64,000 nucleotides of DNA from Pontiella desulfatans (GCF_900890425.1 NZ_CAAHFG010000001.1:186001-250000); one strand, 5' to 3'. Positions 41,837-55,486 are shown, numbered from the stretch's first letter. Notes: a model not told the origin generated them from the sequence alone. Numbers and translations: made by a program.

Positions 41837-43084
41837 ATGGCTGTTAGCATTGCGGAGATGATCCTGCTGGGATTGCTGGTGGACTGGGTGTTCCGCAAGT
41901 TGCGGCTACCCGGCCTGCTGGGCATGCTGCTGCTCGGTGTCCTCTTTGGCCCGTATGTGCTCGATCTGCTGGAGCCGGGATTCCTGGCGGCATCCTCCGA
42001 CCTGCGGATGATCGCGCTGATCATTATCCTACTGCGCGCCGGATTCGAATTGAGCCGCGATGTTCTGAACCGGGTGGGGGTGCAGGCCCTGCTGATGTCG
42101 TTTGTTCCCGGTATGCTGGAGGGCGGGACGATCGCCCTGCTTGGCCCGAGGTTTCTGCCGCTGACGCATCTGGAGTCGGCGATGCTCGGTTTCATTGTTG
42201 CGGCGGTGTCGCCGGCGGTGGTGGTGCCGATGATGATCCATTTCATCGAACGCCGCATGGGGGCGAAAAAAGGGATTCCAACCATGATTCTCGCGGCGGC
42301 TTCGCTGGATGACGTGGTGGCCATCGTCATCTTTTCGGTTTTTCTGGGGTTCTATACGGGATCGTCGGAAAACGTGTTGGTGAAATTTGCAGGGATTCCT
42401 CTCTCCATCATTGCGGGGATCGGGGCGGGTTTGCTGATTGGCTGGCTGTTGTTGAGGCTGTTTGAAAAGTTTAATCCGCGCGCCACGAAGCGCACGATGA
42501 TTGTGATCGGTGTTTCAATCCTGTTGGTTCGCTTCGAGCATCTCCTTGCCGGGGTGGGGCTACCGTTTGCGGCCCTGCTTGCGGTCATGGCAACGGGATT
42601 CATTATTTTGGAAAAACGGGAGCATATGGCCCACGAGATCTCCTCCAAGCTGGGGAAGCTTTGGGTGTTTGCTTCGATCATGCTTTTTACGTTGGTGGGG
42701 GCGCAGGTGGATGTTTCGCTGGCATGGAGTACGGGCTTGGCGGGGCTGGCCTTGATCGTGTGCGGTTTGATTGCTCGTAGCATGGGGGTGATGCTCTCGC
42801 TCATCGGAAGTCCGCTGAATGGGCCTGAACGCTTGTTCGCCGTGGTTTCCTATTGGCCGAAGGCCACGGTTCAGGCGGCGATGGGGGCGGTTCCACTAAT
42901 GGCCATGAAGAAGGCGGGAATGCAAACCGCTGCCGGGGAGGTCATTCTGGCGGTTTCCGTGCTGAGCATCGTTTTCACCGCGCCTCTCGGGGCTCTCGCC
43001 ATCAAGTGGGTAGGCGAACGGGCCTTGGCATCCGATCCGGGCGCAGACCGCGCCGCACTCGATGCCGTCTCTGACAGCCGCTGA
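41837..43084 (+). CDS. CPA2-type cation/proton antiporter
   Basis: 415 residues, about 12 membrane helices, start hydrophobic. The Na+/H+ exchanger fold is supported by LRLPGLLGMLLLGVLFGP, LIIILLRAGFELS, VSPAVVVPMMI and the paired acids in AAASLDDVVAIVIF (about 158-159), expected in the transport core. No TrkA-N or USP domain follows, so regulation by NAD or nucleotides through such a domain is absent. It probably exchanges Na+ or K+ for H+. Stop codon abuts the stop codon of the convergent small gene. Confidence 0.87.
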   Translation: MAVSIAEMILLGLLVDWVFRKLRLPGLLGMLLLGVLFGPYVLDLLEPGFLAASSDLRMIALIIILLRAGFELSRDVLNRVGVQALLMSFVPGMLEGGTIALLGPRFLPLTHLESAMLGFIVAAVSPAVVVPMMIHFIERRMGAKKGIPTMILAAASLDDVVAIVIFSVFLGFYTGSSENVLVKFAGIPLSIIAGIGAGLLIGWLLLRLFEKFNPRATKRTMIVIGVSILLVRFEHLLAGVGLPFAALLAVMATGFIILEKREHMAHEISSKLGKLWVFASIMLFTLVGAQVDVSLAWSTGLAGLALIVCGLIARSMGVMLSLIGSPLNGPERLFAVVSYWPKATVQAAMGAVPLMAMKKAGMQTAAGEVILAVSVLSIVFTAPLGALAIKWVGERALASDPGADRAALDAVSDSR

Positions 43085-43309: not shown

Positions 43310-43460
43310 TTTGTCCTCCTTTCCCATGATGTTGGACATTAATGAGATGTGATTGTTCAGTTTCGGGACGCGATGCGATGCTACGTTTTTGTCGGGAATC
43401 CGGGGGCGCGAGTTGGTTGTCCAACGCGCGATATGGTGTTGTTTTCGGAAGGGAACACGG

Positions 43461-44851
43461 CGCGTTGCCTCAAAAATAAATGACACCGTAGAGGTGCGGA
43501 TGAGGAGTCGTTTGACTGCATTAATGGGTACCCTCTAATTCGGGGGTTGTCAAGGTGGGGAGGCAGTCGGGGAACCCGGGTTCCCCGACTGCGGCGGACT
43601 CGCCGGTTTTCTTCATTTTTTCGATCTTGCGACGTCGGCGCTGGATGCGATTGCCCAGCTCGAAAGGGTCGAGCGTTTCGTATTCGCGTTGCAGAGCAGC
43701 CTCCTGTTGTTCGCCAAGGATGCCGCTGACCTTCAGGCGGTCAAAGGGCGTGGCGGGGGCATCGTATTTCTTTTTGTACCGGCTTTTGACGCGAACCTTG
43801 CTTTTTAGCTTGAACGAGGGTTTGAAGAAGTTGTTGAGCCGTTCCCAGTCGCGGTAGAGTGCGTTGAGCTCTCTGATCATGGCCGGGTTGTCGAGCCGGT
43901 CGTAGCCGAGCAACTCGCGCACGTGCGTCCAGTTCTTTTGTTCGACATGGGCGTTGTCGTTCTTGTGGTACGGTCTGCTGCGTGTAAAACAGACGGGCTG
44001 TTTGCGTTGCAGGAAGTAGCGCGTGAGATGGTGGTTGAGGAACTCGCTGCCGTTGTCGCAGTCGAAGCCCAGGATGGCGAAGGGCAGCTTGTTTTCCACG
44101 TCGTGGGTTTGGTGCATCACGCCTTCAGCGCCTTTGTTCCAGACCGCGCGGGTTACCGTCCAGGTGCTTATGATGTCCGTATAGGTGATCGACCAGATGA
44201 AGTCCCCGCTCATCGATCCGCCACAGTGGGCTACTGTGTCGGCTTCGAGATAGCCGGGCCGGTCGATGTCCTCGGTGGAGGTGCGGATTGGGATCTGATT
44301 CTTGAGCAGCGAGCCGGGCTTGGTACCGGTATTGCGCCTTCGCTGGTACTGCGCTTTGAAGGGTTTGAGCACCCGGTCGATGCTTGCCGGGCTGATTCTC
44401 AGTAGCTTTTCACGGCATTCGGTCGATAGCGGTTCGTAATGTTTTTCATAGTGCTTCAGCCAATGTGGCATAGCAGGCTTGAGGCGCTTCCCGCACAGTT
44501 GTCCAGAACGAAGCCACAGAGTTTTGAGGGTCTTGCGCAATTCAGCAGAGTCGTACTCGCCTTTGCGGCCGCGTTTGCCCCTGGAGGGCGTAAACGAGTC
44601 GTTGAGCAGCTTGGTGGCATGCTTGCGATCATAGCCGCATACCGCGCATACTTCATCGAGCAACCGGGTCTTGTAGGCCTTTTCCGCGCGCCTATAGCGG
44701 CGTTTTTGTACCGCGATGTATTCCATTCTGGTTTCGCAACTCATCTCTTTCATCCTCCCTGTATACAGGGTGTGATTTTTTGTGAGTCAACGAATCCTTT
44801 CCGCCCGCATCCTATCGGATGCTTCGGTGTCATTTAATTTGAGGCAACTCG
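43461..44851 (-). mobile_element. Insertion sequence copy 2 (1391 bp)
   Basis: Identical in length and almost identical in sequence to 19251-20641, with the same inverted-repeat ends. The direct repeat CACGG lies on both sides (43456-43460 and 44852-44856), a 5-bp target duplication. It lies between the small membrane gene (43309) and the TPR operon (45024), so it can separate either gene from its promoter. Confidence 0.93.
43521..44753 (-). CDS. DDE transposase of insertion sequence copy 2 (ISNCY-like)
   Basis: 410 residues, differing from copy 1 only at residue 214 (His here, Asn in copy 1; a T to G change on the plus strand at 44114). All three catalytic acids (D172, D233, E271) are intact, so both copies are probably active. 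Near identity means the copies arose very recently. Copy-specific change could serve as a marker for which is the source. Confidence 0.92.
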   Translation of the reverse strand: MKEMSCETRMEYIAVQKRRYRRAEKAYKTRLLDEVCAVCGYDRKHATKLLNDSFTPSRGKRGRKGEYDSAELRKTLKTLWLRSGQLCGKRLKPAMPHWLKHYEKHYEPLSTECREKLLRISPASIDRVLKPFKAQYQRRRNTGTKPGSLLKNQIPIRTSTEDIDRPGYLEADTVAHCGGSMSGDFIWSITYTDIISTWTVTRAVWNKGAEGVMHQTHDVENKLPFAILGFDCDNGSEFLNHHLTRYFLQRKQPVCFTRSRPYHKNDNAHVEQKNWTHVRELLGYDRLDNPAMIRELNALYRDWERLNNFFKPSFKLKSKVRVKSRYKKKYDAPATPFDRLKVSGILGEQQEAALQREYETLDPFELGNRIQRRRRKIEKMKKTGESAAVGEPGFPDCLPTLTTPELEGTH

Positions 44852-45023
44852 CACGGATGTTTTTTGCGTCTTATTGGCTTGAAAAGTTCCTTAGTGAATG
44901 TAGGTTGTTACGAATCGCACATGTTGTGCGCCAGGTTCGGCCTTGGTGGCGCAATGGTCAGGAAGGAGCGGCACATGGGGTCGCTCGGTTATTTTTATAG
45001 TCATAGTGTTTGAGGGGTAGTTT

Positions 45024-47846
45024 ATGAAGCTTTACCACCGTTTTCGTGGAAACCAGGTGCAGACGGCGATTTTGGCCGTTGCTTTGATTGCCGGTGTTGC
45101 GTCGGCGCAAGATTACGGCACCTTGGGTATTTCCGATGTCGTGGCCTCCGCCGACCGCATGTTGCAGCGCGGCGATTACCGGGGTGCAATTCCCGCCCTT
45201 GAAGAGGTGATCCGCCGAACGGAGTCGCTCGACGATCCGCAGGGCATGGATACCTGCCAGACCTGCCGCTTCCAGCTGGCCCGGTCCCTGTTCCAGTCGG
45301 GCGACGTGCCCGCCGGAATGGCCGTGCTCGAAAAGTACCTCGCCAGCCAGCCGCTCAAGAAAGAGCGCATGGCGCTTCGCATGATGGCGCAGGGCTTCTT
45401 CGACACGCAGGAATGGCCGAAGATCGAAGAGATCGCCAATCGTCTGCTCGCATTGCCGGACTTGGAGAGGGAAGACCTATACAACGCCAACCTGTTGCTC
45501 GGCCAGGCGCTGTTCCGTCAGGAAAAGTGGGCCGAGAGTGTGAAGCCCCTTGGCTATGCCGCCGACTACTCCAAGGAAGAGCGCGTGAAGGCGCTCTGCC
45601 AGATCATGGTGGTCCGCGCGCTGGTGGAAGCCGAAAACTGGCGCGAGCTGTTTGGCTGGATTCCGAAGATCTACCGTACCGATTCCAAATACGACATCTC
45701 CCTCAACCTGACGCTCATGAAGGCCGGTAAGGCCCGCTTCGAGGACGACGATTTCCTCAACGCCCTGCTGCTATACCGCATGGTGCTGCCGCGTGAAAAA
45801 TTGATCGATTTCTCTGAAAACAAAGTACGCACCCTGACCCAGAAGCTCGAGGCCGACAAGAAGACCGGCATCAAGGAGGAAGAGGTCAAGGAGCGCGATA
45901 CCGAGATTGCCGACCTCCGCGAGTCCATGAAGACCCTCAACGATCTCCCGCCCTATGAGGATGAGGTAACCTTCCGCATTGGCCAGATCTATGCCGAGGT
46001 GAAGCGCTACTGGGAAGGTTATGTGCTGTTCGACAAGCTCTACCGCCAGGATCGCACCAGTGAAATCGGCGAAGCCTCGATGCTTCAGTCGGTGCTGATT
46101 CTCTACGACGTGCAGGAAATCCCGCGTGCCGAAGAACGCATCATCAAGTATCTCGAAGAGCGCCCGGACGGCCAGTATGCACGCACCCTGCTTTCGATGA
46201 TGGTTCGCGACAACCTCGTGAAGCAAAATTTCGACCGCGTGGTTGAACTCCAGAAATATGTCGAGGGGCTGCCGGCCACCAGCGATCCGGATGAACTCTC
46301 CCTTCAGGCCGACCTGCACTACATGCTCGCCTTTGGCTATTTCCAGAAGAAGGACTACAAAACCGCCGGCAGCCAGTTCTCGGTCATCATCAAGGATCAT
46401 CCCAACAGCACCCATTTCAACGACGCGCGCTACTACCGCGGCATGACCTACATGCTCCAAGCCAACTATGCCGACGCGTTGGCCGATTTCCTCGCCTACC
46501 AGGAAAAGAACGAGCACGGCGAACATTTCGCGGCGTCCATGTTCCGCGAAGCCGTCTGTAAGTTCGGCCTGGAACAAATCCAGGAATCCGAAGCCGCCTT
46601 CACCCGCTTCATCGACGCCTTCCCGGACGACGTGCTCGTTTCGGAAGCGCACTCCATGCGCGGCGATATCGAGGCCTCCAAGGAAGCCACCAACGAAGAT
46701 CCCTACACGCTGGACCGCGCATTGGCCGACTACCGCAAGGGCATCGACAAGGCCACCACCGATCTCCAGGCATCCTACCCGGCCTTCAAGGCGGCCGAGG
46801 TCTATAAGCTTGAGTTCAAATGGCAGGAAATCATCGACCTGATGAACTACTACATGGATCGTTGGGAAGAAAAGGCCGATGTGGCCGAAGCCACCTTCTG
46901 GATCGGGCAGTCCCAGATCGAGCTCGGGCAGGTTTCCGAGGCGGTCGAGGCCTACCTTAACGCAATCGAACGCTTTGGTAACGATCCGACCAAACAGGGG
47001 GTCGACAAGATCATCCTGGAGCTCGTCAAAGTGTCCAGCTACCACCTCTCCGACGAAGACCGCGAAGGCCTCGCCATCAAGATCAAGCTCAGGCTTACCA
47101 GTATTGATGAGCGCGAGCAGGTGCTGAAATTGCGTCTCCGTATCACCCAGGCCATGCTTCAGGGTGAAGAAGTTGCCGCGGCCCTCGGCGCCGAGCTGCT
47201 GGAGTCCAAACTCGAACTCACTCTGGCCTCCCCGGCGGCGCTGGCCCTGATGTGCGATGCCGCAGTGGCCACCGGCAACACGGTTGAGATGGAACGGCTG
47301 GGTAGCTATTTCCTCGAAAACTTCGAGGATTCAGAAATGCTGTGGCACGCCTACCGTGCCCAGACCTTCAAGTTCCTGGCTCAGGAAAACTATAAGGATG
47401 TCCTTTGGACGATCGACGAGGCGCAGGGCATGTTCGGCGCCGAACCCCACATGGGTTGGGCGCAGATCATCAAGGCTGACACGTTGTTCAAGATGAAGAA
47501 ATACGACGAAGCCTTCGAAGCCTACAACATGTGCATGGGCGTTGCCGAATGGCGCGGGCCCATCTTTGCTGAAGGCATGTTCGGCATGGGCAGTTGCGCG
47601 CTGGCCCAAGAGGACATTGAAAAGGCGCATTCCTTCTTCCAGCGCACCTATCTGCTCTTCAAGGGGTATGCCGACGGCGACTGGGCGGCCAAGGGCTACC
47701 TTGCCGCAGCGGACTGCCTGATCAAGCTCGGTCGCGAGGAAGACGCGGTCAACACGCTCAAGGCCATGCTTGAGGACGAATACACGAACACCAACCCGCT
47801 TGCGGAAAAAGTTCGCGAACAGCTTAAGAAACTAGGGGTACAATAA
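45024..47846 (+). CDS. Exported TPR-repeat protein, 940 residues
   Basis: The signal peptide covers about 1-28 (ILAVALIAGVASA-Q). The rest is a string of helical TPR-like repeats, for example DRMLQRGDYRGAIPALEEVI, MLAFGYFQKKDYKTAGSQFSVIIKDHP and YADALADFLAYQEKNEHGEHFAASMFREAV. Such scaffolds are similar to YbgF/BamD-style periplasmic TPR proteins, but far longer. First gene of the ExbB-ExbD operon; its stop overlaps the next start by one base (TAATG). It may organise the periplasmic part of that machine, which is inferred from the genome context. An ATG after GAGGGGTAG is used. Confidence 0.85.
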   Translation: MKLYHRFRGNQVQTAILAVALIAGVASAQDYGTLGISDVVASADRMLQRGDYRGAIPALEEVIRRTESLDDPQGMDTCQTCRFQLARSLFQSGDVPAGMAVLEKYLASQPLKKERMALRMMAQGFFDTQEWPKIEEIANRLLALPDLEREDLYNANLLLGQALFRQEKWAESVKPLGYAADYSKEERVKALCQIMVVRALVEAENWRELFGWIPKIYRTDSKYDISLNLTLMKAGKARFEDDDFLNALLLYRMVLPREKLIDFSENKVRTLTQKLEADKKTGIKEEEVKERDTEIADLRESMKTLNDLPPYEDEVTFRIGQIYAEVKRYWEGYVLFDKLYRQDRTSEIGEASMLQSVLILYDVQEIPRAEERIIKYLEERPDGQYARTLLSMMVRDNLVKQNFDRVVELQKYVEGLPATSDPDELSLQADLHYMLAFGYFQKKDYKTAGSQFSVIIKDHPNSTHFNDARYYRGMTYMLQANYADALADFLAYQEKNEHGEHFAASMFREAVCKFGLEQIQESEAAFTRFIDAFPDDVLVSEAHSMRGDIEASKEATNEDPYTLDRALADYRKGIDKATTDLQASYPAFKAAEVYKLEFKWQEIIDLMNYYMDRWEEKADVAEATFWIGQSQIELGQVSEAVEAYLNAIERFGNDPTKQGVDKIILELVKVSSYHLSDEDREGLAIKIKLRLTSIDEREQVLKLRLRITQAMLQGEEVAAALGAELLESKLELTLASPAALALMCDAAVATGNTVEMERLGSYFLENFEDSEMLWHAYRAQTFKFLAQENYKDVLWTIDEAQGMFGAEPHMGWAQIIKADTLFKMKKYDEAFEAYNMCMGVAEWRGPIFAEGMFGMGSCALAQEDIEKAHSFFQRTYLLFKGYADGDWAAKGYLAAADCLIKLGREEDAVNTLKAMLEDEYTNTNPLAEKVREQLKKLGVQ

Positions 47847-48727
47847 TGAACAAACCTTTTTTTGCCATGGCGCTCACAGCGCTCATTGCCGCCACGGTTT
47901 CCGTAGATGCGGCACAGCTCAAATGCAAGCTGGTCATGCCCGGCGACAAATCGTGGGACGGCGCGATCGTTGGTCGCGACGGAGACTGGATCGAATTTTC
48001 CACAGGGGCCGGCAAACGTCCGATCCGCGTCGGTGCTTCGACCATCAAGGAGCTCGAGTTCGATGTGAATATCGACCAGGACAAGCTCAACGAAATGAAC
48101 CGCAACCGCGAATACGAGCGGGTTATTTCGGCGCTTGACCGCATTATGGCCCCGTACGCGGAATTCAGCGACATCCCGTCGAACCTGTCTCAATACAATG
48201 CGTTGCTGATGGAGCTGCACTACAAGGTCAAAGACTACGACAAAACGCTGGACTTCGCCGGAAAGCTGGCCGGAGACGACCGCGATCCCGAGCTGCAGGA
48301 GCAGGCACGCTTCTACCAGGCGCTGGCCTACATCGATGCGGGCCGTGCCGATGAAGCCCAGGCGTTGATGGCCAAGTATGGCTGGGACCAGAACGTGGGC
48401 GAAGACGCTCCGCCCGAAAAACTCTATATCATGGCGAAGCTGATGGCCCTGAAAAAGGATTATGCCTCGGCCATGGAGCTGGTGGCGAAGATTATTGCCT
48501 TCAACAGCCAGGATCCCGAGTGGATGCAGCCGGCTGAACTGTTTTGCGCGGAAATCTACACTGAACTCGGCATGTTTGATTCGGCCGAAGAGGTGATCCG
48601 CCAGATTTCGCTGTTATACAAAAACACGAATGAGGATGACCAGGCACAGAAGCTTAAGATCCAGATCGAAAAGTTGCGTGCCGAGAAGGAATTACAGGAC
48701 TCTTTGGAGACGACTGAGGAAGCTTAA
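47846..48727 (+). CDS. Exported TPR-like protein, 293 residues
   Basis: Signal peptide about 1-22 (MALTALIAATVSVDA-A). A short beta region (about 23-80, KLVMPGDKSWDGAIVGRDGDWIEFSTGAGK) is reminiscent of an SH3-like barrel. Helical repeats of TPR type follow to the end (HYKVKDYDKTLDFAGKLAG and ELFCAEIYTELGMFDSAEEVI). It overlaps the 940-residue TPR gene by one base and precedes exbB by 25 bases, so it is probably translated with both. Specific function unknown. Confidence 0.8.
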   Translation: MNKPFFAMALTALIAATVSVDAAQLKCKLVMPGDKSWDGAIVGRDGDWIEFSTGAGKRPIRVGASTIKELEFDVNIDQDKLNEMNRNREYERVISALDRIMAPYAEFSDIPSNLSQYNALLMELHYKVKDYDKTLDFAGKLAGDDRDPELQEQARFYQALAYIDAGRADEAQALMAKYGWDQNVGEDAPPEKLYIMAKLMALKKDYASAMELVAKIIAFNSQDPEWMQPAELFCAEIYTELGMFDSAEEVIRQISLLYKNTNEDDQAQKLKIQIEKLRAEKELQDSLETTEEA

Positions 48728-48752
48728 CCGATAGGAATGAAGGAGAAATACA

Positions 48753-49526
48753 ATGACGAAAAAAATTATTAAACTGGCATTTTGCTTGAGTCTGGTGGCG
48801 GCGCCGATCGCCTTCGCCCAGGAAGCAGCCGAGGCGGCCCCCGAGGAAGCAGCAGTTGCGAACGTACAGCAGACCACGTTGTGGCAGATGATCAAGCAGG
48901 GTGGTTGGGCCATGTGGCCGTTGGGCCTGATGTCGGTCGGCATGGTCTATTTCATTGTTCAGAACGGTCTGGCATTGCGTGAAAAGGTTTTGCTTCGCCC
49001 CGACCTGATCCCGGAATTCATCCAGTTGATGAAGGACAAGAAAATCGTTGAGGCCCACAGCCTCTGCAAAGAAAACGAAACCCTGTTCACCTACGTGTTC
49101 CAGGCGGGTCTCGAGCGTTGCTCCACCACCCGCGAAATCAACTTCGGCAAAGTGAAGGAAGGGATCGACGAAGCTTCCACCGAGGAAATCACGTCCTACA
49201 TGAAGCCGATCGACTATCTTTCCATCATTGGCGCCACCGCCCCGATGCTCGGACTGCTCGGTACGGTATCCGGTATGATCAAGGCCTTCCAGACCATCGG
49301 TTCGCAGGGCATGGGTAAGCCGGAAGCACTCGCCGGTAACATTGGTGAGGCCCTCGTAACGACGGCCACCGGTCTGTTGATCGCCATTCCGTCGATGCTG
49401 TCCTACTACTATTTCCGGAACAGCTTCATCAAAACCACTGCAACGCTTGGCCGTAACATCGGTGGGCTGCTCGATACGCTCGAAACCGGCGAACTGCCGC
49501 TCGGCTTCGAAGAGCATGCTGGGTAG
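48753..49526 (+). CDS. ExbB/TolQ/MotA-family proton channel protein
   Basis: 257 residues. Signal-like start (MTKKIIKLAFCLSLVAAPIAFA), then the MotA/TolQ/ExbB domain: first helix near 52-72 (GWAMWPLGLMSVGMVYFIV), cytoplasmic loop, then YLSIIGATAPMLGLLGTVSGMIKAF near 150-174 and ALVTTATGLLIAIPSMLSYYYF near 205-226. The GLLGTV and TTATGLLIAIP blocks are the family signature. Pairs with the two ExbD proteins to use the proton gradient. ExbB with an N-terminal extension is frequent in PVC and Bacteroidota. Confidence 0.93.
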   Translation: MTKKIIKLAFCLSLVAAPIAFAQEAAEAAPEEAAVANVQQTTLWQMIKQGGWAMWPLGLMSVGMVYFIVQNGLALREKVLLRPDLIPEFIQLMKDKKIVEAHSLCKENETLFTYVFQAGLERCSTTREINFGKVKEGIDEASTEEITSYMKPIDYLSIIGATAPMLGLLGTVSGMIKAFQTIGSQGMGKPEALAGNIGEALVTTATGLLIAIPSMLSYYYFRNSFIKTTATLGRNIGGLLDTLETGELPLGFEEHAG

Positions 49527-49578
49527 TTTCCGCGGCTTGGAAGCCATTGTCTAGTAACCCTCCAACGCGAGGTGTGGA

Positions 49579-49983
49579 ATGAAAATTAAGTCACCAGCCA
49601 GAGATGACGTAAGCATTGACATGGGGCCGATGATCGACCTTGTGTTCCTGCTGCTCATCTTCTTCATGGTCGCTTCCGTCGTCACGGAACTGGAAAAGGT
49701 GGAGGTGGAGATTCCCCAATCTTCCCACGCCAAGGTTCCGGAAGACACGAAGGGCAGAATGATGCTCTCGATCGATGCGGACAACCAGGTATACGTGGGT
49801 ACCCAGCCGGTGGAACTCGAGGAGCTGAAAACGCTCATCGACTCCGAGCTGGATCTGAACCCTGAGTTGCGCATCCTGATTCGCGCCGACCACCGTGTCG
49901 AGTACAAGACCTGCAAAGATCTCATGATCGCGTGTGGCGAGGTCGGGGCAACCGACCTCATCTACGCAACCTTCGAGGAGTAA
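49579..49983 (+). CDS. ExbD/TolR-family protein 1
   Basis: 134 residues. Short cytoplasmic start, then one membrane helix with the essential Asp: PMIDLVFLLLIFFMVASVV (Asp about 20). The periplasmic domain follows (about 45-134, MMLSIDADNQVYVGTQPVELEEL, then LRILIRADHRVEYKTCKDLMIAC). It forms the stator-side proton path with ExbB. A gap of 52 bases from exbB; GAGGTG precedes the ATG. Confidence 0.93.
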   Translation: MKIKSPARDDVSIDMGPMIDLVFLLLIFFMVASVVTELEKVEVEIPQSSHAKVPEDTKGRMMLSIDADNQVYVGTQPVELEELKTLIDSELDLNPELRILIRADHRVEYKTCKDLMIACGEVGATDLIYATFEE

Positions 49984-49986
49984 ATT

Positions 49987-50421
49987 ATGAAACTTATTGA
50001 AGAAATGATGAATAAAAAGGCTGAGCTGGAAATTGCTCCGCTGATTGACGTCGTGTTTCTGCTCCTCATCTACTTCATGGTGACGGCCTCCTTGATCAAG
50101 AAGGAAGCAGACCTCTCCTTCATGCTTCCGGCCAAGGTGGACGTGCCTGAGTCGCTCGATCTGCCGATCGAGGTGTTGATCGAGGTTTCCGAGCTCGGCG
50201 ACATCGTGATTGAAGGCATGGTTTTTGGCAAGGACGAGACCAACCTCGACGACCTGATTGGCCAGCTGCTTTCGCTTAAGGAAGCGGCCGACTCTTCGGG
50301 GAGCGAGTTGATCGTCAACATCCTTCCGGCCGACAAGGCCGTGCATGGGCGCATCATCAAGGTGATGGACGCCTGCGCTGCGGCGGATGTGAAGAACATG
50401 TCGTTCAGCATGACGATGTAG
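49987..50421 (+). CDS. ExbD/TolR-family protein 2
   Basis: 144 residues. Membrane helix with Asp: APLIDVVFLLLIYFMVTASLI (Asp about 21). Periplasmic domain includes LPIEVLIEVSELGDIVIEGMVF and ELIVNILPADKAVHGRIIKVMDAC. It differs clearly from ExbD 1, so the pair may form a mixed dimer. It begins 3 bases after ExbD 1. A terminator follows at 50431-50460, which separates it from the TonB-like genes. Confidence 0.92.
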   Translation: MKLIEEMMNKKAELEIAPLIDVVFLLLIYFMVTASLIKKEADLSFMLPAKVDVPESLDLPIEVLIEVSELGDIVIEGMVFGKDETNLDDLIGQLLSLKEAADSSGSELIVNILPADKAVHGRIIKVMDACAAADVKNMSFSMTM

Positions 50422-50430
50422 AAAGAAATA

Positions 50431-50460
50431 GAAGGGGTGCCGTCATGGCGCCCCTTTCTT
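50431..50460 (+). terminator. Terminator after the second exbD gene
   Basis: GAAGGGGTGCC (50431-50441) pairs with GGCGCCCCTTTC (from 50447) with one mismatch, then CTTTTC. Located 9 bases beyond the stop codon. Confidence 0.75.
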
Positions 50461-50565
50461 TTCTGAAGATGCCCGGTCGCTCGGGCATTTTTTATGAATA
50501 ATCCAAAGAAACCCCGGCGTGCAACCGTATCCTTGATGGAACGATGCACGCAATAGGTGGAAACC

Positions 50566-51771
50566 ATGTCAGACCAAAAACAAAAGAAACGTTATTTTGC
50601 AAAACACGCGAAATCAAGTGCGGCACTCATCAGCCTCGGTATCCATGCCGTCCTGATTCTGGTTGCCGTATCCTTCGTGGCGGTTACCGTCATCCAGAAG
50701 GAAGATCAAAAGTTTGAATACAAGAAAGTCAGCCGTCCGAAGCAAAAACTCAAGAAACTGCAGGTGCCGGTGAAGGTGAAGAAAAACAAGCCGAAGCCGA
50801 AGCTGCGAAAGCGCGTGGTGGTTAAGGATGTGAAACGCAATACCCCCGAATTCAAGATGCCCGAGATTACCGGCGTCAAGGGAGGCGTGGCTGGCATGGG
50901 CGATGGCGGTGGAGTTGAAAGCATCGGCTTTTCCATGCCGGAAATGGACTTCTTCGGGGCCAAGGCCAAGGGCGAAAAGGTTTGCTTCGTGGTGCACTTT
51001 GGCCCGGCGACGATTGGACCGACCCCTTTTGACCGCATGACCGGCCTGACCATCCGCAATCGTTTGGTGGACTTGGTGGAGGGGCTGCCGGAATACACCC
51101 TTTTTAATGTGACGAGCTACTGGGCTAGCGACTGCTGGGCCATGGAGCCGAACATGCAGCTCGCCACCCCGGCCAACAAGCAGAAAGTCAAGGAGTGGAT
51201 GGCTCCCGTCAACCCGCTCGAAGGCAATTATCAGCACTGCTTCGCCGGTAAGCCCAAGTCGGTCGATAATGCCCGCGGAAAATATCCGACCAAGGTGACC
51301 GGACTTCCATCCTATGCGCCGAAGTGGGTTTATCCCTACGCGGTTCCCGGCAACCTCGTCCAGAAGTATGCGGCCACGGCGAAAGGCGGAATCATGCACT
51401 GGGGCCGCGGTGTCGCCTGGGCCATCCTCGAGCAAAAGCCCGACACGATTTTCGTTCTGACCACCAACTATATCGATGGTTGGGGCAGCGGCAGCAAGGG
51501 GCAGCCTTCCAAGATGGCGGCTTCCCTTAAACAAATGTGCACCGATTCCTATGGGCCGGACCGAAAGAAATGGCCGACCATCAACATCGTTGTCCTCACC
51601 AAGGCGGGCAAGGATTCCCAAGGGGCCGGAAACGTGTTGAATGCGCAGTTTGGGCCGATTTGGAAGGGGTTCAATGCCGACGGCTCGGTGATTGACGATA
51701 TCAAGAAGTTCATGAATGAAGAAGAACGGGATCTGTACCGCAAATACCAGTCCCAGTACGGCAGCAAATAA
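50566..51771 (+). CDS. TonB-like protein with degenerate VWA domain, copy 1
   Basis: 401 residues. A short basic cytoplasmic start is followed by one membrane helix (SSAALISLGIHAVLILVAVSFVAVTV, about 16-42), then a Lys/Pro-rich stretch (about 55-95), as in TonB. A Gly-rich joint (GMGDGGGVESIGFSMPEMDFFG) leads into a von Willebrand A-like fold of about 270 residues: VCFVVHFGPAT is where active VWAs have VDxSGSM, and ILEQKPDTIFVLTTNYIDGW matches the later strand. The metal-binding Asp and Ser residues are absent. There is no TonB C-terminal domain. The ATG at 50566 follows AGGTGG. Probably driven by the ExbBD motor upstream; unproven. Confidence 0.75.
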   Translation: MSDQKQKKRYFAKHAKSSAALISLGIHAVLILVAVSFVAVTVIQKEDQKFEYKKVSRPKQKLKKLQVPVKVKKNKPKPKLRKRVVVKDVKRNTPEFKMPEITGVKGGVAGMGDGGGVESIGFSMPEMDFFGAKAKGEKVCFVVHFGPATIGPTPFDRMTGLTIRNRLVDLVEGLPEYTLFNVTSYWASDCWAMEPNMQLATPANKQKVKEWMAPVNPLEGNYQHCFAGKPKSVDNARGKYPTKVTGLPSYAPKWVYPYAVPGNLVQKYAATAKGGIMHWGRGVAWAILEQKPDTIFVLTTNYIDGWGSGSKGQPSKMAASLKQMCTDSYGPDRKKWPTINIVVLTKAGKDSQGAGNVLNAQFGPIWKGFNADGSVIDDIKKFMNEEERDLYRKYQSQYGSK

Positions 51772-51941
51772 CCCGCAATTGTCGCCGGATGAATTCCCCC
51801 TTATTCGTCGAGGTGTTTATTTATGCTTAAGGGAAGCTTCGGATTGAATTTGGCCGATGATGTGCTAGCTTACCATCTTTTTCAAGAAGCCCTGTGCGGT
51901 CGCTATTGAAGGGCCGTTTCCCGTCGACCAGAGGAAAAGCA

Positions 51942-53207
51942 ATGACAGAGAAAAGACCTAAAAAGCGATTTTTCGCCAAACATGCCAAATCCAGCGCAGC
52001 CCTAATCAGTTTGGGCATCCATGCCGTCCTGGTTCTCGTGGCCGTGTCCTTCGTGGCGGTTACCGTCATCCAGAAGGAAGAACAAAAATTCGAATACAAG
52101 AAAGTCAGCCGCCCGAAGCAAAATCTCAAGAAGCTGCAGGTGCCGGTGAAGGTGAAGAAAAACAAGCCGAAGCCAAAGCTGCGCAAACGCGTGGTGGTTA
52201 AGGATGTGAAACGCAATACCCCCGAGTTCAAGATGCCCGAGATTACCGGCGTCAAGGGGGGCATGGCCGGCATGGGCGATGGCGGCGGGGTGGAAAGCAT
52301 TGGCTTCTCCATGCCCGAAATCGACTTTTTCGGCGCCAAGGCCAAGGGCGAATCCATCGTCTTCGTCGTCCACTTCGGTCCGGCAACCATCAGTGCCGGG
52401 GGGGGCGGGAACGGCGAGACCAGATATACCCCGTTTTCGCGCATGACCGGCCTGACGATCCGGAACCGGTTGGAGGATCTGGTTGACGGATTGCCGGAAT
52501 ACACCTTGTTCAACGTCATTGCCTATTTTGCGGGCGATGCCTGGGCGATGGAACCCAAGATGCAACTGGCGACGTCGGCGAACAAGCAGAAGGTGAAGGA
52601 TTGGATGGAACCGGTGAATCCGCTGGAAGGGGATTATCAGTACTGTTTTGCGGGGAAGCCGCCCACGGTTGCCGCCGCCTATAAAAACTATCCGACCAAG
52701 GTTGATAAGCTCCCGTTCTACGCCACCAAATGGTGCTATCCCTACTATGTTCCGAGCGAACTGGAAAAAAAATATGCGCCGGATGCGCCCAATGGCTTCA
52801 TGCACTGGGGACGAGGGGTGGCCTGGGCAATTCTGGAGCAGAAGCCGGATACCATCTTCGTGCTGACAACCAACTACATTGATGGATGGGAAACCGGTGA
52901 TTCCAAGAAGGGGAACCGGACTCCGGCCCAACCCACCAAGATGGCGAATTCCCTGAAAAAGATGTGCCTGGATGTCTATGGCCCTGATAAGAAAAAATGG
53001 CCAACCATCAATGTGGTGGTTCTGGCGAAAGCCGGCAGGGACTCCACTGGGGCCAATCGGGTGCTGAACGATGAATTCGGCCCTATCTGGAAAGGGTTCA
53101 AGTCCGATGGATCGGTTATCGATGACATCAAGAAGTTCATGAACAAGGGAGAGCAGGAACTCTACCGCAAATACCAATCCCAGTACGGCAATAAGGAAGG
53201 CAATTGA
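51942..53207 (+). CDS. TonB-like protein with degenerate VWA domain, copy 2
   Basis: 421 residues, paralogue of the preceding gene. The first 130 residues (cytoplasmic start, membrane helix, Lys/Pro stretch and Gly joint) differ from copy 1 at only a handful of positions, while the VWA-like part is more diverged and has an extra Gly-rich insertion (ISAGGGGNGETRYTP) after FVVHFGPAT. It lacks the metal-site residues too. The ATG at 51942 follows GAGGAAAAGC. Sequence similarity also extends to the DNA level in the N-terminal part, so recent duplication or gene conversion is likely. The two may form a heteromer. Confidence 0.75.
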   Translation: MTEKRPKKRFFAKHAKSSAALISLGIHAVLVLVAVSFVAVTVIQKEEQKFEYKKVSRPKQNLKKLQVPVKVKKNKPKPKLRKRVVVKDVKRNTPEFKMPEITGVKGGMAGMGDGGGVESIGFSMPEIDFFGAKAKGESIVFVVHFGPATISAGGGGNGETRYTPFSRMTGLTIRNRLEDLVDGLPEYTLFNVIAYFAGDAWAMEPKMQLATSANKQKVKDWMEPVNPLEGDYQYCFAGKPPTVAAAYKNYPTKVDKLPFYATKWCYPYYVPSELEKKYAPDAPNGFMHWGRGVAWAILEQKPDTIFVLTTNYIDGWETGDSKKGNRTPAQPTKMANSLKKMCLDVYGPDKKKWPTINVVVLAKAGRDSTGANRVLNDEFGPIWKGFKSDGSVIDDIKKFMNKGEQELYRKYQSQYGNKEGN

Positions 53208-53371: not shown

Positions 53372-55486
53372 ATGGATTTGGAATCGGTGAACGAAGAGTG
53401 GATTGTGGGATTGGCGGATGGCGAGATCGATGCGTCCGAGCTGGTCGAGGTGCTGGACGGGCTGGTGGATGCGGATCGTGGGCAGGAAGCCGATCGCGGG
53501 GCCCAGCACCTGTTCCAGAAGCTGGCGGAAGACGATAAGGTCGACGATGCGCTGGCGGTCCTCTCGTGGATGGGCGGCGTACGTGGTACGGTCTCGGACA
53601 TCAAGGGGGTGCTCGAAAAGCTCTTTGGCAAGGACCGCAACGCGCTCAAGATGATCGAGCCCGCCGGATTTGGTGGCCAGACCCCGGTCGCCCAATGCTT
53701 TGAGCGCCTGAATCTCCTTCGCTCCCTCAAGACCGGAATGCTTTGCTACAACGAAACCTGGGGCTTCGGCATCATCGAGCATATCGACTTTTTCTACCAG
53801 CAGGTCGAGATCGACTTCGAACGCAAGGGCGATCACGAGATGGCCTTCAGCTATGCCGCCGAAGCGCTCGAAGTGCTCGGCGACGAACACATCCTGGCCA
53901 TCAAGCACAACCATCCGGACAAGCTCGATAAGATGGTCAAGGAGGAGCCGGCCGAGGTCGTGCGCATTACGCTCCGGAGCTATGGCAACATGTCCGTTAC
54001 CCGCCTGATGGAAAAGCTGGTGCCGTCCGTGCTGACCGAAGCCAAATGGAAAAAATTCTGGGAGGGCGCCCGCCGGGCGCTCAAGGATGACGCCTCCGTC
54101 GAGATCCCGAAAAAGCGTTCCGACAACATTGTCTTCCATCGCAAGGGCATGGCCTACGACGACGCATGGTTCGGGATGATCGGTGCCGAACGCGATATCG
54201 AAGGCCTGTTCGAACGCTTCAAGGAGATCATCGAGAAAAAGATCGATATTTCGTCGGAAGCCGCCCAGGAGGTGCTGGCGAACCGCCTCTCCTTCATTAT
54301 TAAAGGCGCGCCGTCTGCCCGTCCCGAGTGGAAGGCCGAAGGCTTCATCTATGCCCGGATGTTCGAAATCGAGCCGACCGATCTGGAGACCGCCAAACTG
54401 ATCCGCGATTTGATCGACGACGATTTGGTCACCATGCTCGACCGCCTGCCGTCGCGCCAGTTGCAGGCGTTGCTGACGATTCTGATCGAAAATGACAAGG
54501 AGGCCGTTATCGGCACCTTGAGCGAAGTGATTCCCGTGGTCAGCCACCCGGTGCTCAATGAAGTGATGGCGGCCTTGATTGCCCATGGCGCCGAAGAGGA
54601 CGTACGCCAGATCATGGCCAGTGCCGTGGCGCGCCGTACGGCCAGCTCGCCCATGTTGCTGTGGTGCCAGCGCTCCACCGAATATGTCGAGAAATGGGAC
54701 CTGATCTCCAAGGGCGATCTCGCCTTCCGCATCCAGGAAGTGCTGGAGGTCAACAGCGCCGGCGCCATGCTCCGCGCACAGAACCAGCTGCGCGAACGCT
54801 TCCAGACGGAAGAATGGCTTCACGATGTGATGGGCGCCATGACCGAGCAGCAGCGCCGCGACTTCATGCGCCGCATCCACGAAGGCAACGGGTGGGATGC
54901 GCTCGACCGCAAGTCGGTTGTGGCCAAGGTGCTTCGCAAGTTCCCCGAATTGCAGGATATCATTCTCCCGACCGCCGGGCAGGCCGCTACGAGACGGGAA
55001 GTTCCGCAGACCTCCACGCGCAGCTATACCCTGCGCCAAAAACAGCTCGAGCGAATCATGACGGTCGATATCCCGGAAAACTCCAAGGAAATCGAAGTGG
55101 CCCGCAGCTATGGCGACCTTCGCGAAAACGCGGAATTCAAATATGCCAAGGAGCGCCAGGGCCTGCTCATGGCGCAGGGCGCTCAGCTGGCCGAGGATCT
55201 GGAAAAGGTCAAACCGACCGACTTCGCCGACATCGGAACCGATGTCGTTGCCGCCGGTTGCGGGGTGGAACTGAGATATGAAGAAACCGGAGCCGAGGAA
55301 ACCTACTACATCCTCGGGGTGTGGGATCAGGACGAAGCCCTCTCGATCATTTCCAGCGAAACCCGGCTGGCAAAGGCGCTCATCGGCCACCGGCCCGGCG
55401 ACAAGGTGGAGATTCCGGCCGGCGAGTGCGAATTGAAGGCGGTTCTGCCTTTGCCCGCAGGCATCAAGGCTTGGATCAGCGCATAG
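53372..55486 (+). CDS. greA: Long GreA-type transcription factor, 704 residues
   Basis: The C-terminal 160 residues are a complete Gre factor. The coiled-coil tip reads ARSYGDLRENAEFKYAKERQ (near 575-595), with the catalytic Asp and Glu of GDLxEN in place, and the FKBP-like C-terminal domain follows (VDxxEALSIISSETRLAKAL, then GDKVEIP). The first 540 residues are a helical region with no domain that I can name (CFERLNLLRSLKTGMLCYNETWGFGIIEHIDFF near 108-140). GreA of Chlamydia has the same unusual long form, so this is a PVC-type trait. Gre factors rescue backtracked RNA polymerase by transcript cleavage. Followed by a terminator. Confidence 0.88.
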   Translation: MDLESVNEEWIVGLADGEIDASELVEVLDGLVDADRGQEADRGAQHLFQKLAEDDKVDDALAVLSWMGGVRGTVSDIKGVLEKLFGKDRNALKMIEPAGFGGQTPVAQCFERLNLLRSLKTGMLCYNETWGFGIIEHIDFFYQQVEIDFERKGDHEMAFSYAAEALEVLGDEHILAIKHNHPDKLDKMVKEEPAEVVRITLRSYGNMSVTRLMEKLVPSVLTEAKWKKFWEGARRALKDDASVEIPKKRSDNIVFHRKGMAYDDAWFGMIGAERDIEGLFERFKEIIEKKIDISSEAAQEVLANRLSFIIKGAPSARPEWKAEGFIYARMFEIEPTDLETAKLIRDLIDDDLVTMLDRLPSRQLQALLTILIENDKEAVIGTLSEVIPVVSHPVLNEVMAALIAHGAEEDVRQIMASAVARRTASSPMLLWCQRSTEYVEKWDLISKGDLAFRIQEVLEVNSAGAMLRAQNQLRERFQTEEWLHDVMGAMTEQQRRDFMRRIHEGNGWDALDRKSVVAKVLRKFPELQDIILPTAGQAATRREVPQTSTRSYTLRQKQLERIMTVDIPENSKEIEVARSYGDLRENAEFKYAKERQGLLMAQGAQLAEDLEKVKPTDFADIGTDVVAAGCGVELRYEETGAEETYYILGVWDQDEALSIISSETRLAKALIGHRPGDKVEIPAGECELKAVLPLPAGIKAWISA

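Follow-up and report, generated by a model that had tools for sequence, protein, structure and literature searches.

What does an ExbB/ExbD motor drive when its partner proteins resemble TonB at the amino end and carry another fold at the opposite end? The question is raised by an operon (45024-53207) identified in a stretch of 64,000 nucleotides of DNA from the marine bacterium Pontiella desulfatans (GCF_900890425.1 NZ_CAAHFG010000001.1:186001-250000), here called the window, in which positions are counted from the first letter. Seven open reading frames (ORFs), all co-directional, encode in order two exported TPR proteins, ExbB, two different ExbD subunits, and two tandem transducers, P0001 and P0002, ending in a von Willebrand factor A (vWA) fold (Table 1). 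This gene set had been outlined in a preliminary description of the DNA, and all seven ORFs are found where they had been placed, in agreement with Pfam. The operon had also been taken for an envelope device driven by the proton motive force, which is still the most likely reading, and matches a prediction made in the main text of PMC12204202. The same paper describes exactly this gene arrangement in bacteria of the Planctomycetes-Verrucomicrobia-Chlamydiae (PVC) group, and the earlier statement that no named system has such a composition has to be withdrawn. On balance, we favor the view that the operon encodes a motor type powered by the proton motive force and shared by many interchangeable arms.

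Table 1. Coordinates of the operon genes, of the regions of P0001 and of the upstream flank in the window
Feature	Position	Strand	Evidence
Na+/H+ exchanger-type gene	41837..43084	+	PF00999 9.6e-38; in relatives, too, a conserved neighbor on the upstream side of the operon
Insertion sequence of 1393 bp with imperfectly matching terminal inverted repeats and a transposase-like ORF at 43521-44753	43460..44852	-	100% identical copy at L051:1999-3391
TPR protein 1, 940 aa, N-terminal signal-like segment	45024..47846	+	Pfam TPR_2 3.4e-19; tol_pal_ybgF-type repeats; first operon gene, conserved
TPR protein 2, 293 aa, N-terminal signal-like segment	47846..48727	+	Pfam TPR_19 1e-7; second operon gene, conserved
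ExbB/TolQ-like proton-channel subunit, 257 aa	48753..49526	+	MotA_ExbB PF01618 2.6e-27
ExbD/TolR-like subunit a (P0006), PMIDLVFLLLIFFMV helix with conserved Asp	49579..49983	+	ExbD PF02472 5.4e-28
ExbD/TolR-like subunit b (P0007), APLIDVVFLLLIYFMV helix with conserved Asp	49987..50421	+	ExbD PF02472 2.5e-17
vWA transducer 1 (P0001), 401 aa	50566..51771	+	AlphaFold2 model and fold searches
P0001 transmembrane anchor helix, residues 18-43, S23-x3-H27	50617..50694	+	AlphaFold2 model
P0001 disordered Lys/Pro linker, residues 44-134, KKLQVPV..PKLRKR..MPEIxG conserved	50695..50967	+	pLDDT <50 for 43-134; alignment A1
P0001 vWA-fold domain, residues 135-384	50968..51717	+	VIA-align with inter-alpha-inhibitor HC1: Z 15.1, rmsd (root mean square deviation) 2.6, 164 aligned residues
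P0001 VVHFGPAT, degenerate metal-site motif, H144/G146/A148 replacing D/S/S	50989..51012	+	ITIH4 profile alignment; 71-homologue alignment
vWA transducer 2 (P0002), 421 aa, tandem paralogue	51942..53207	+	81% identical to P0001

The motor operon and its transducers
Matches of the window operon to the TPR, MotA_ExbB and ExbD profiles all exceed the curated Pfam cut-offs. ExbB aligns over the channel helices to TolQ and ExbB structures, and ExbD subunit a has been aligned through its Asp to ExbD structures. The transmembrane Asp is found in both ExbD copies (PMID in P0006, PLID in P0007), and together with the two profiles it identifies the genes as an ExbB/ExbD motor. The TPR proteins both start with a hydrophobic segment, read by eye as a signal peptide. 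The order TPR-TPR-ExbB-ExbD-ExbD-vWA is syntenic in about 12 other loci of Pontiellaceae/Kiritimatiellales, and is found also in one Opitutus contig (L092). Such recurrence excludes a chance arrangement, and the association with exbB and exbD supposed at the outset is borne out by the survey.

P0001 was modelled with AlphaFold2 from 18 paralogues (mean predicted local distance difference test, pLDDT, 67). In the model the anchor helix is followed by disorder and then by alternating strands and helices; in the region 135-400 pLDDT is mostly 73-96, and lower around 210-250. PDB matches retrieved with Foldseek and VIA-align are vWA domains, and, independently of the fold search, the sequence profile of the paralogues matches ITIH4 at E 3.8e-4. 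The VWA-like fold proposed earlier for the last two proteins is thus supported by structure prediction; in profile searches no VWA model of Pfam or NCBIfam was matched by P0001 or P0002, or by the arms in general, except for L047 and one match at E 0.17, and the assignment of the fold therefore rests on structure prediction. A TonB-like anchor and Lys/Pro linker lacking the TonB C-terminal domain had also been described, and TonB_C (PF03544) is indeed unmatched in either protein at E 1.

Loss of the metal site
The ITIH4 profile alignment sets the D-x-S-x-S stretch, the hallmark of the metal-ion-dependent adhesion site (MIDAS), against the VVHFGPAT column, the reading given in the preliminary description. 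P0001, P0002 and the operon-type clade carry H144-F-G146-P-A148 in its place. Residues at the anchor and metal site were counted over 71 homologues. His occupies the first metal position of both window copies, of 13 of the 15 operon-locus copies, and of some further orphans, as we call arms encoded away from motor genes; a group of eight sequences has Leu there, and the remaining vWA arms have Asp. In the tree of vWA domains His and Leu sequences make up one clade (support 0.95), and Asp types, including those of Opitutus and other Verrucomicrobia, fall outside. The metal site has therefore probably been lost once, in the clade filling the operon. The V-H-F-G-P-A-T motif has been conserved after the loss, a pattern in the aligned sequences that suggests a retained role, not decay. 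The notion of an inactive VWA domain holds for the operon arms, from which an intact metal site is absent, but is not the rule, as most orphan vWA paralogues keep the Asp. With the tandem transducers and the single loss, naturally occurring mutants are available for probing the function of the vWA end.

Arms of the Leu type (V-L-A-G-[PG]-A-S), a group to which L024 of the P. desulfatans genome belongs, are preceded in L069, L070, L073, L075, L076 and L078 by an exported protein of some 300 aa, itself conserved. L073, L075, L076 and L078 continue with genes for EF-Tu, NusG and ribosomal proteins, a setting of housekeeping genes.

A genome-wide family of arms
The anchor module is encoded at 29 places in the P. 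desulfatans genome (8.66 Mb), only two of which are in the motor operon. About 27 further arms, carrying Asp-bearing vWA or PA14 ends, lie away from motor genes. Arms have been found in all the 27 other genomes of the genus searched, and in one genome of a sister genus, in numbers from 1 to 24 per genome; ExbD genes range from 4 to 15 in the same survey. The transmembrane signature S/T-x3-His is present in 70 of the 71 homologues, PA14-type arms included (Ser in 61 and Thr in 10 at position 23, H27 in 70). Conservation of S23, H27 and the KLQVP/MPEI linker is about as strict in orphan arms as in those of the operon. Ends are variable, and may be a metal-site-less vWA, a vWA with a partial metal site, or PA14.

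PA14-type arms are found at L037, L038 and L040-L046. The model of L038, whose pLDDT is only 58 overall, matches the PA14 sugar-binding domain 6m8m with a Z of 12.9, and the top matches of its fold search are almost all PA14 domains or PA14-like adhesins. In L037 PA14 of Pfam is matched at E 1.2e-4, with 22.4 bits, slightly below the cut-off of 24. Some PA14 arms feature an SHD1-type domain further toward the C-terminus. The same anchor carries at least two folds, vWA and PA14. Neither the PA14 ends nor the 29 anchor places had been noticed in the preliminary description.

The L042 and L043 arms, both of the PA14-SHD1 type, differ only in the N-terminal tail, as if duplicated very recently. 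At L036:9658-11516 an arm fragment of 156 aa, its N-terminus of the vWA type, lies 113 bp ahead of an ORF similar to the PA14 portion of a different arm, an arrangement that has the look of decay or of recombination between types of arm. The L047:7782-10583 product combines a zf-HC2 anti-sigma-type domain, an arm-like transmembrane segment and linker devoid of the transmembrane His, and a complete YfbK-type vWA, and may link the arm family to anti-sigma signalling.

Motors are fewer. Four ExbD pairs reside in the P. desulfatans genome, which hosts three TPR-TPR-ExbB-ExbD-ExbD operons. Only the window operon adjoins a P0001-type arm, and the other two (L049, L050) are motors with no P0001-type gene next to them. 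At L048:8698-11998 ExbB-ExbD-ExbD genes are followed by one for a protein of 500 aa that combines an S-x3-H transmembrane helix and an acidic linker with a domain resembling squalene cyclase, and may be yet another type of arm. Only three TonB-dependent receptor plugs are recognizable in the genome, and two TonB proteins (TonB_C matches) are encoded, both away from the window arms.

Comparison with known systems
The core of the window operon is a member of a published class of predicted vWA force transducers. According to the main text of PMC12204202 (Mol Biol Evol 2025), these are encoded in PVC bacteria, Tichowtungia being named, downstream of TPR genes, tolQ-like genes and pairs of tolR-like genes, and feature a transmembrane anchor with a conserved His, a disordered linker of about 100 residues, found in P0001 as well (residues 43-134), and a C-terminal vWA domain. 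Complexes predicted by AlphaFold3 through the conserved His are part of the proposal, "many" of the transducers are said to carry SHLS, and a role of the gliding type is put forward. The main text of that paper includes neither the loss of the metal site, nor tens of orphan arms per genome, nor PA14 on the same anchor; the 29 anchor places, the vWA/PA14 modularity, the single metal-site loss and the two armless motors go beyond it. A literature search retrieved no paper on ExbD with PA14, and no follow-up of the vWA transducer class. A resemblance to YfbK-type proteins, which share the periplasmic vWA fold, has been noted in PMC12204202, and L047 combines both types; PF12450 and PF12034, the N- and C-terminal domains proper to YfbK, are absent from P0001.

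The window system shares with TonB-ExbB-ExbD and TolA-TolQ-TolR the ExbB/TolQ and ExbD/TolR subunits, the latter with the proton-path Asp, the Ser-x3-His transmembrane helix, and a linker spanning the periplasm. Unlike them, it lacks the C-terminal domains of TonB and TolA, has two different ExbD genes and exported TPR partners, features vWA or PA14 ends, and has no TonB-dependent receptor in the operon. Another PVC bacterium, Akkermansia muciniphila, reportedly needs TPR and ExbBD-type genes of its mucin utilization locus MUL1 for mucin uptake, which we take as a lead only. Mucin utilization loci combine pilus-like proteins and transporters (PMC12997984).

A proposed shared motor and its alternatives
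By homology, ExbB and the two different ExbD subunits would form a stator. Single-pass arms would dock on its side through the S-x3-His helix, as TonB and TolA do, and cross the periplasm by a Lys/Pro linker, disordered and some 90 residues long, to end in a gripping domain. In the operon arms the vWA end likely offers a protein-binding, not a metal-dependent, face, because the metal site was lost once and V-H-F-G-P-A-T was then kept. From their synteny, the two exported TPR proteins would probably act as partners in the periplasm. Force would be exerted on the arms, and motors would be shared among them. An arrangement with few motors for many arms is the most likely, and is favored because of the 29 anchor places, the modular ends, the two armless motors, and the few TonB proteins and receptor plugs. 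If so, periplasmic force transduction would be widened from TonB and TolA to a modular family; a set of arms spread over the genome, in which the metal site was lost once and PA14 occurs as a variant end, makes the sharing of motors testable.

The most likely job of the arms would be the handling of surface or envelope polysaccharides, or of proteins binding them. A bolder version, which we put forward tentatively, is that in Kiritimatiellales a few ExbB-ExbD-ExbD motors, serving dozens of arms tipped with vWA, carbohydrate-binding PA14 or other domains as in L048, replace TonB/SusCD for sulfated polysaccharides. In a stricter form, which is also doubtful, each orphan arm belongs to a polysaccharide-utilization gene set, and stands in for SusCD/TonB in pulling the polymer across the outer membrane. 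Pontiella-type bacteria break down sulfated algal polymers by means of hundreds of sulfatases and hydrolases. In line with such a role, Pontiella grows on sulfated polysaccharides (PMC7356697), the carbohydrate-binding PA14 fold sits on the same anchor, hydrolases and sulfatases are found as neighbors, LacI-type and LuxR/two-component genes lie nearby, and TonB-dependent receptors are few. In the passages of Pontiella papers searched, TonB is mentioned once (PMC10880615), and ExbD and vWA nowhere. A motor with exchangeable arms, some ending in PA14, would make the way in which large glycans cross the outer membrane directly testable.

Several results weigh against this picture. The density of sulfatases is 1.15 per 19.5 kb around 27 orphan arms, and 1.15 in 20 random regions as well; an association with sulfatase-based polysaccharide loci, hinted by a first look at the neighbors, was consequently rejected. 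Sulfatases or glycoside hydrolases (GH29, GH106, GH39, GH95, GH3) account for 10 of the 24 close co-directional neighbors of orphan arms, an excess not significant when compared to the neighbors of matched random seed genes (4 of 17, p 0.19). The random region L107, which overlaps the orphan locus L028, was excluded from the latter control and retained in the former, as was L110, which overlaps L031. In the relatives G002, G004 (23 arms, 2 GH29 genes) and G007 (10 arms, no GH29), arms are numerous and GH29 genes scarce or absent. Because the number of arms tracks genome size (rho 0.80), their expansion may in part be general gene gain. The correlation with the number of GH29 genes among the matches listed (rho 0.69) was discarded too, the partial correlation after genome size being only 0.30. 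As to docking, the Leu and the second Ser of SHLS are absent at the TonB spacing, which we take to be +11 and +15 from the first Ser; at these distances from S23 the residues A34 and V38 are invariant in alignment A1. Since the density, neighbor and fucosidase controls temper the hints from PA14 and the hydrolases, the glycan role of the arms is suggestive only, and we regard it as uncertain at best.

Less probable is that the operon is a dedicated, self-contained device for envelope integrity, division or gliding-like motility, working with its own two vWA arms, and that orphans are motorless, for example membrane-tethered binders keeping the anchor by descent. The motor operon holds in most genomes only HFGPAT-type arms, its flanks are syntenic, and the gliding-type role proposed in PMC12204202 would fit. 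Such a device accounts poorly for the strict conservation of anchor and linker in the orphans, and for the two other double-ExbD motors without an arm of their own. That arms are sensors, relaying the state of the envelope or of glycans as ExbBD force acts on vWA or PA14, in the manner of anti-sigma systems, is improbable: the L047 fusion and PA14 matches including the PA14 domain of an anti-sigma factor (6qe7) point that way, but L047 lacks His27 and is the most distant match, and in the other arms nothing but a short tail lies in the cytoplasm. The shared motor with interchangeable arms is retained as the preferred reading.

Flanking genes
The flanks of the operon are shared among relatives, with a Na+/H+ exchanger gene upstream and a peptidase-like gene downstream. 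Eight loci of relatives have the exchanger gene (40-84% identity) about 50-530 bp ahead of TPR1, and lack the insertion sequence found there in the window. Downstream of the window operon, the region 53372-55486 encodes a protein of 704 aa, in which a C-terminal GreA/GreB-type domain comes after a long N-terminal stretch unmatched in Pfam. Upstream, about 170 bp from TPR1, an insertion sequence is found between the exchanger gene and the operon. Its ends read GCGCGTTGCCTCAAA and, as the reverse complement, GCGAGTTGCCTCAAA, and the element is outside the motor system.

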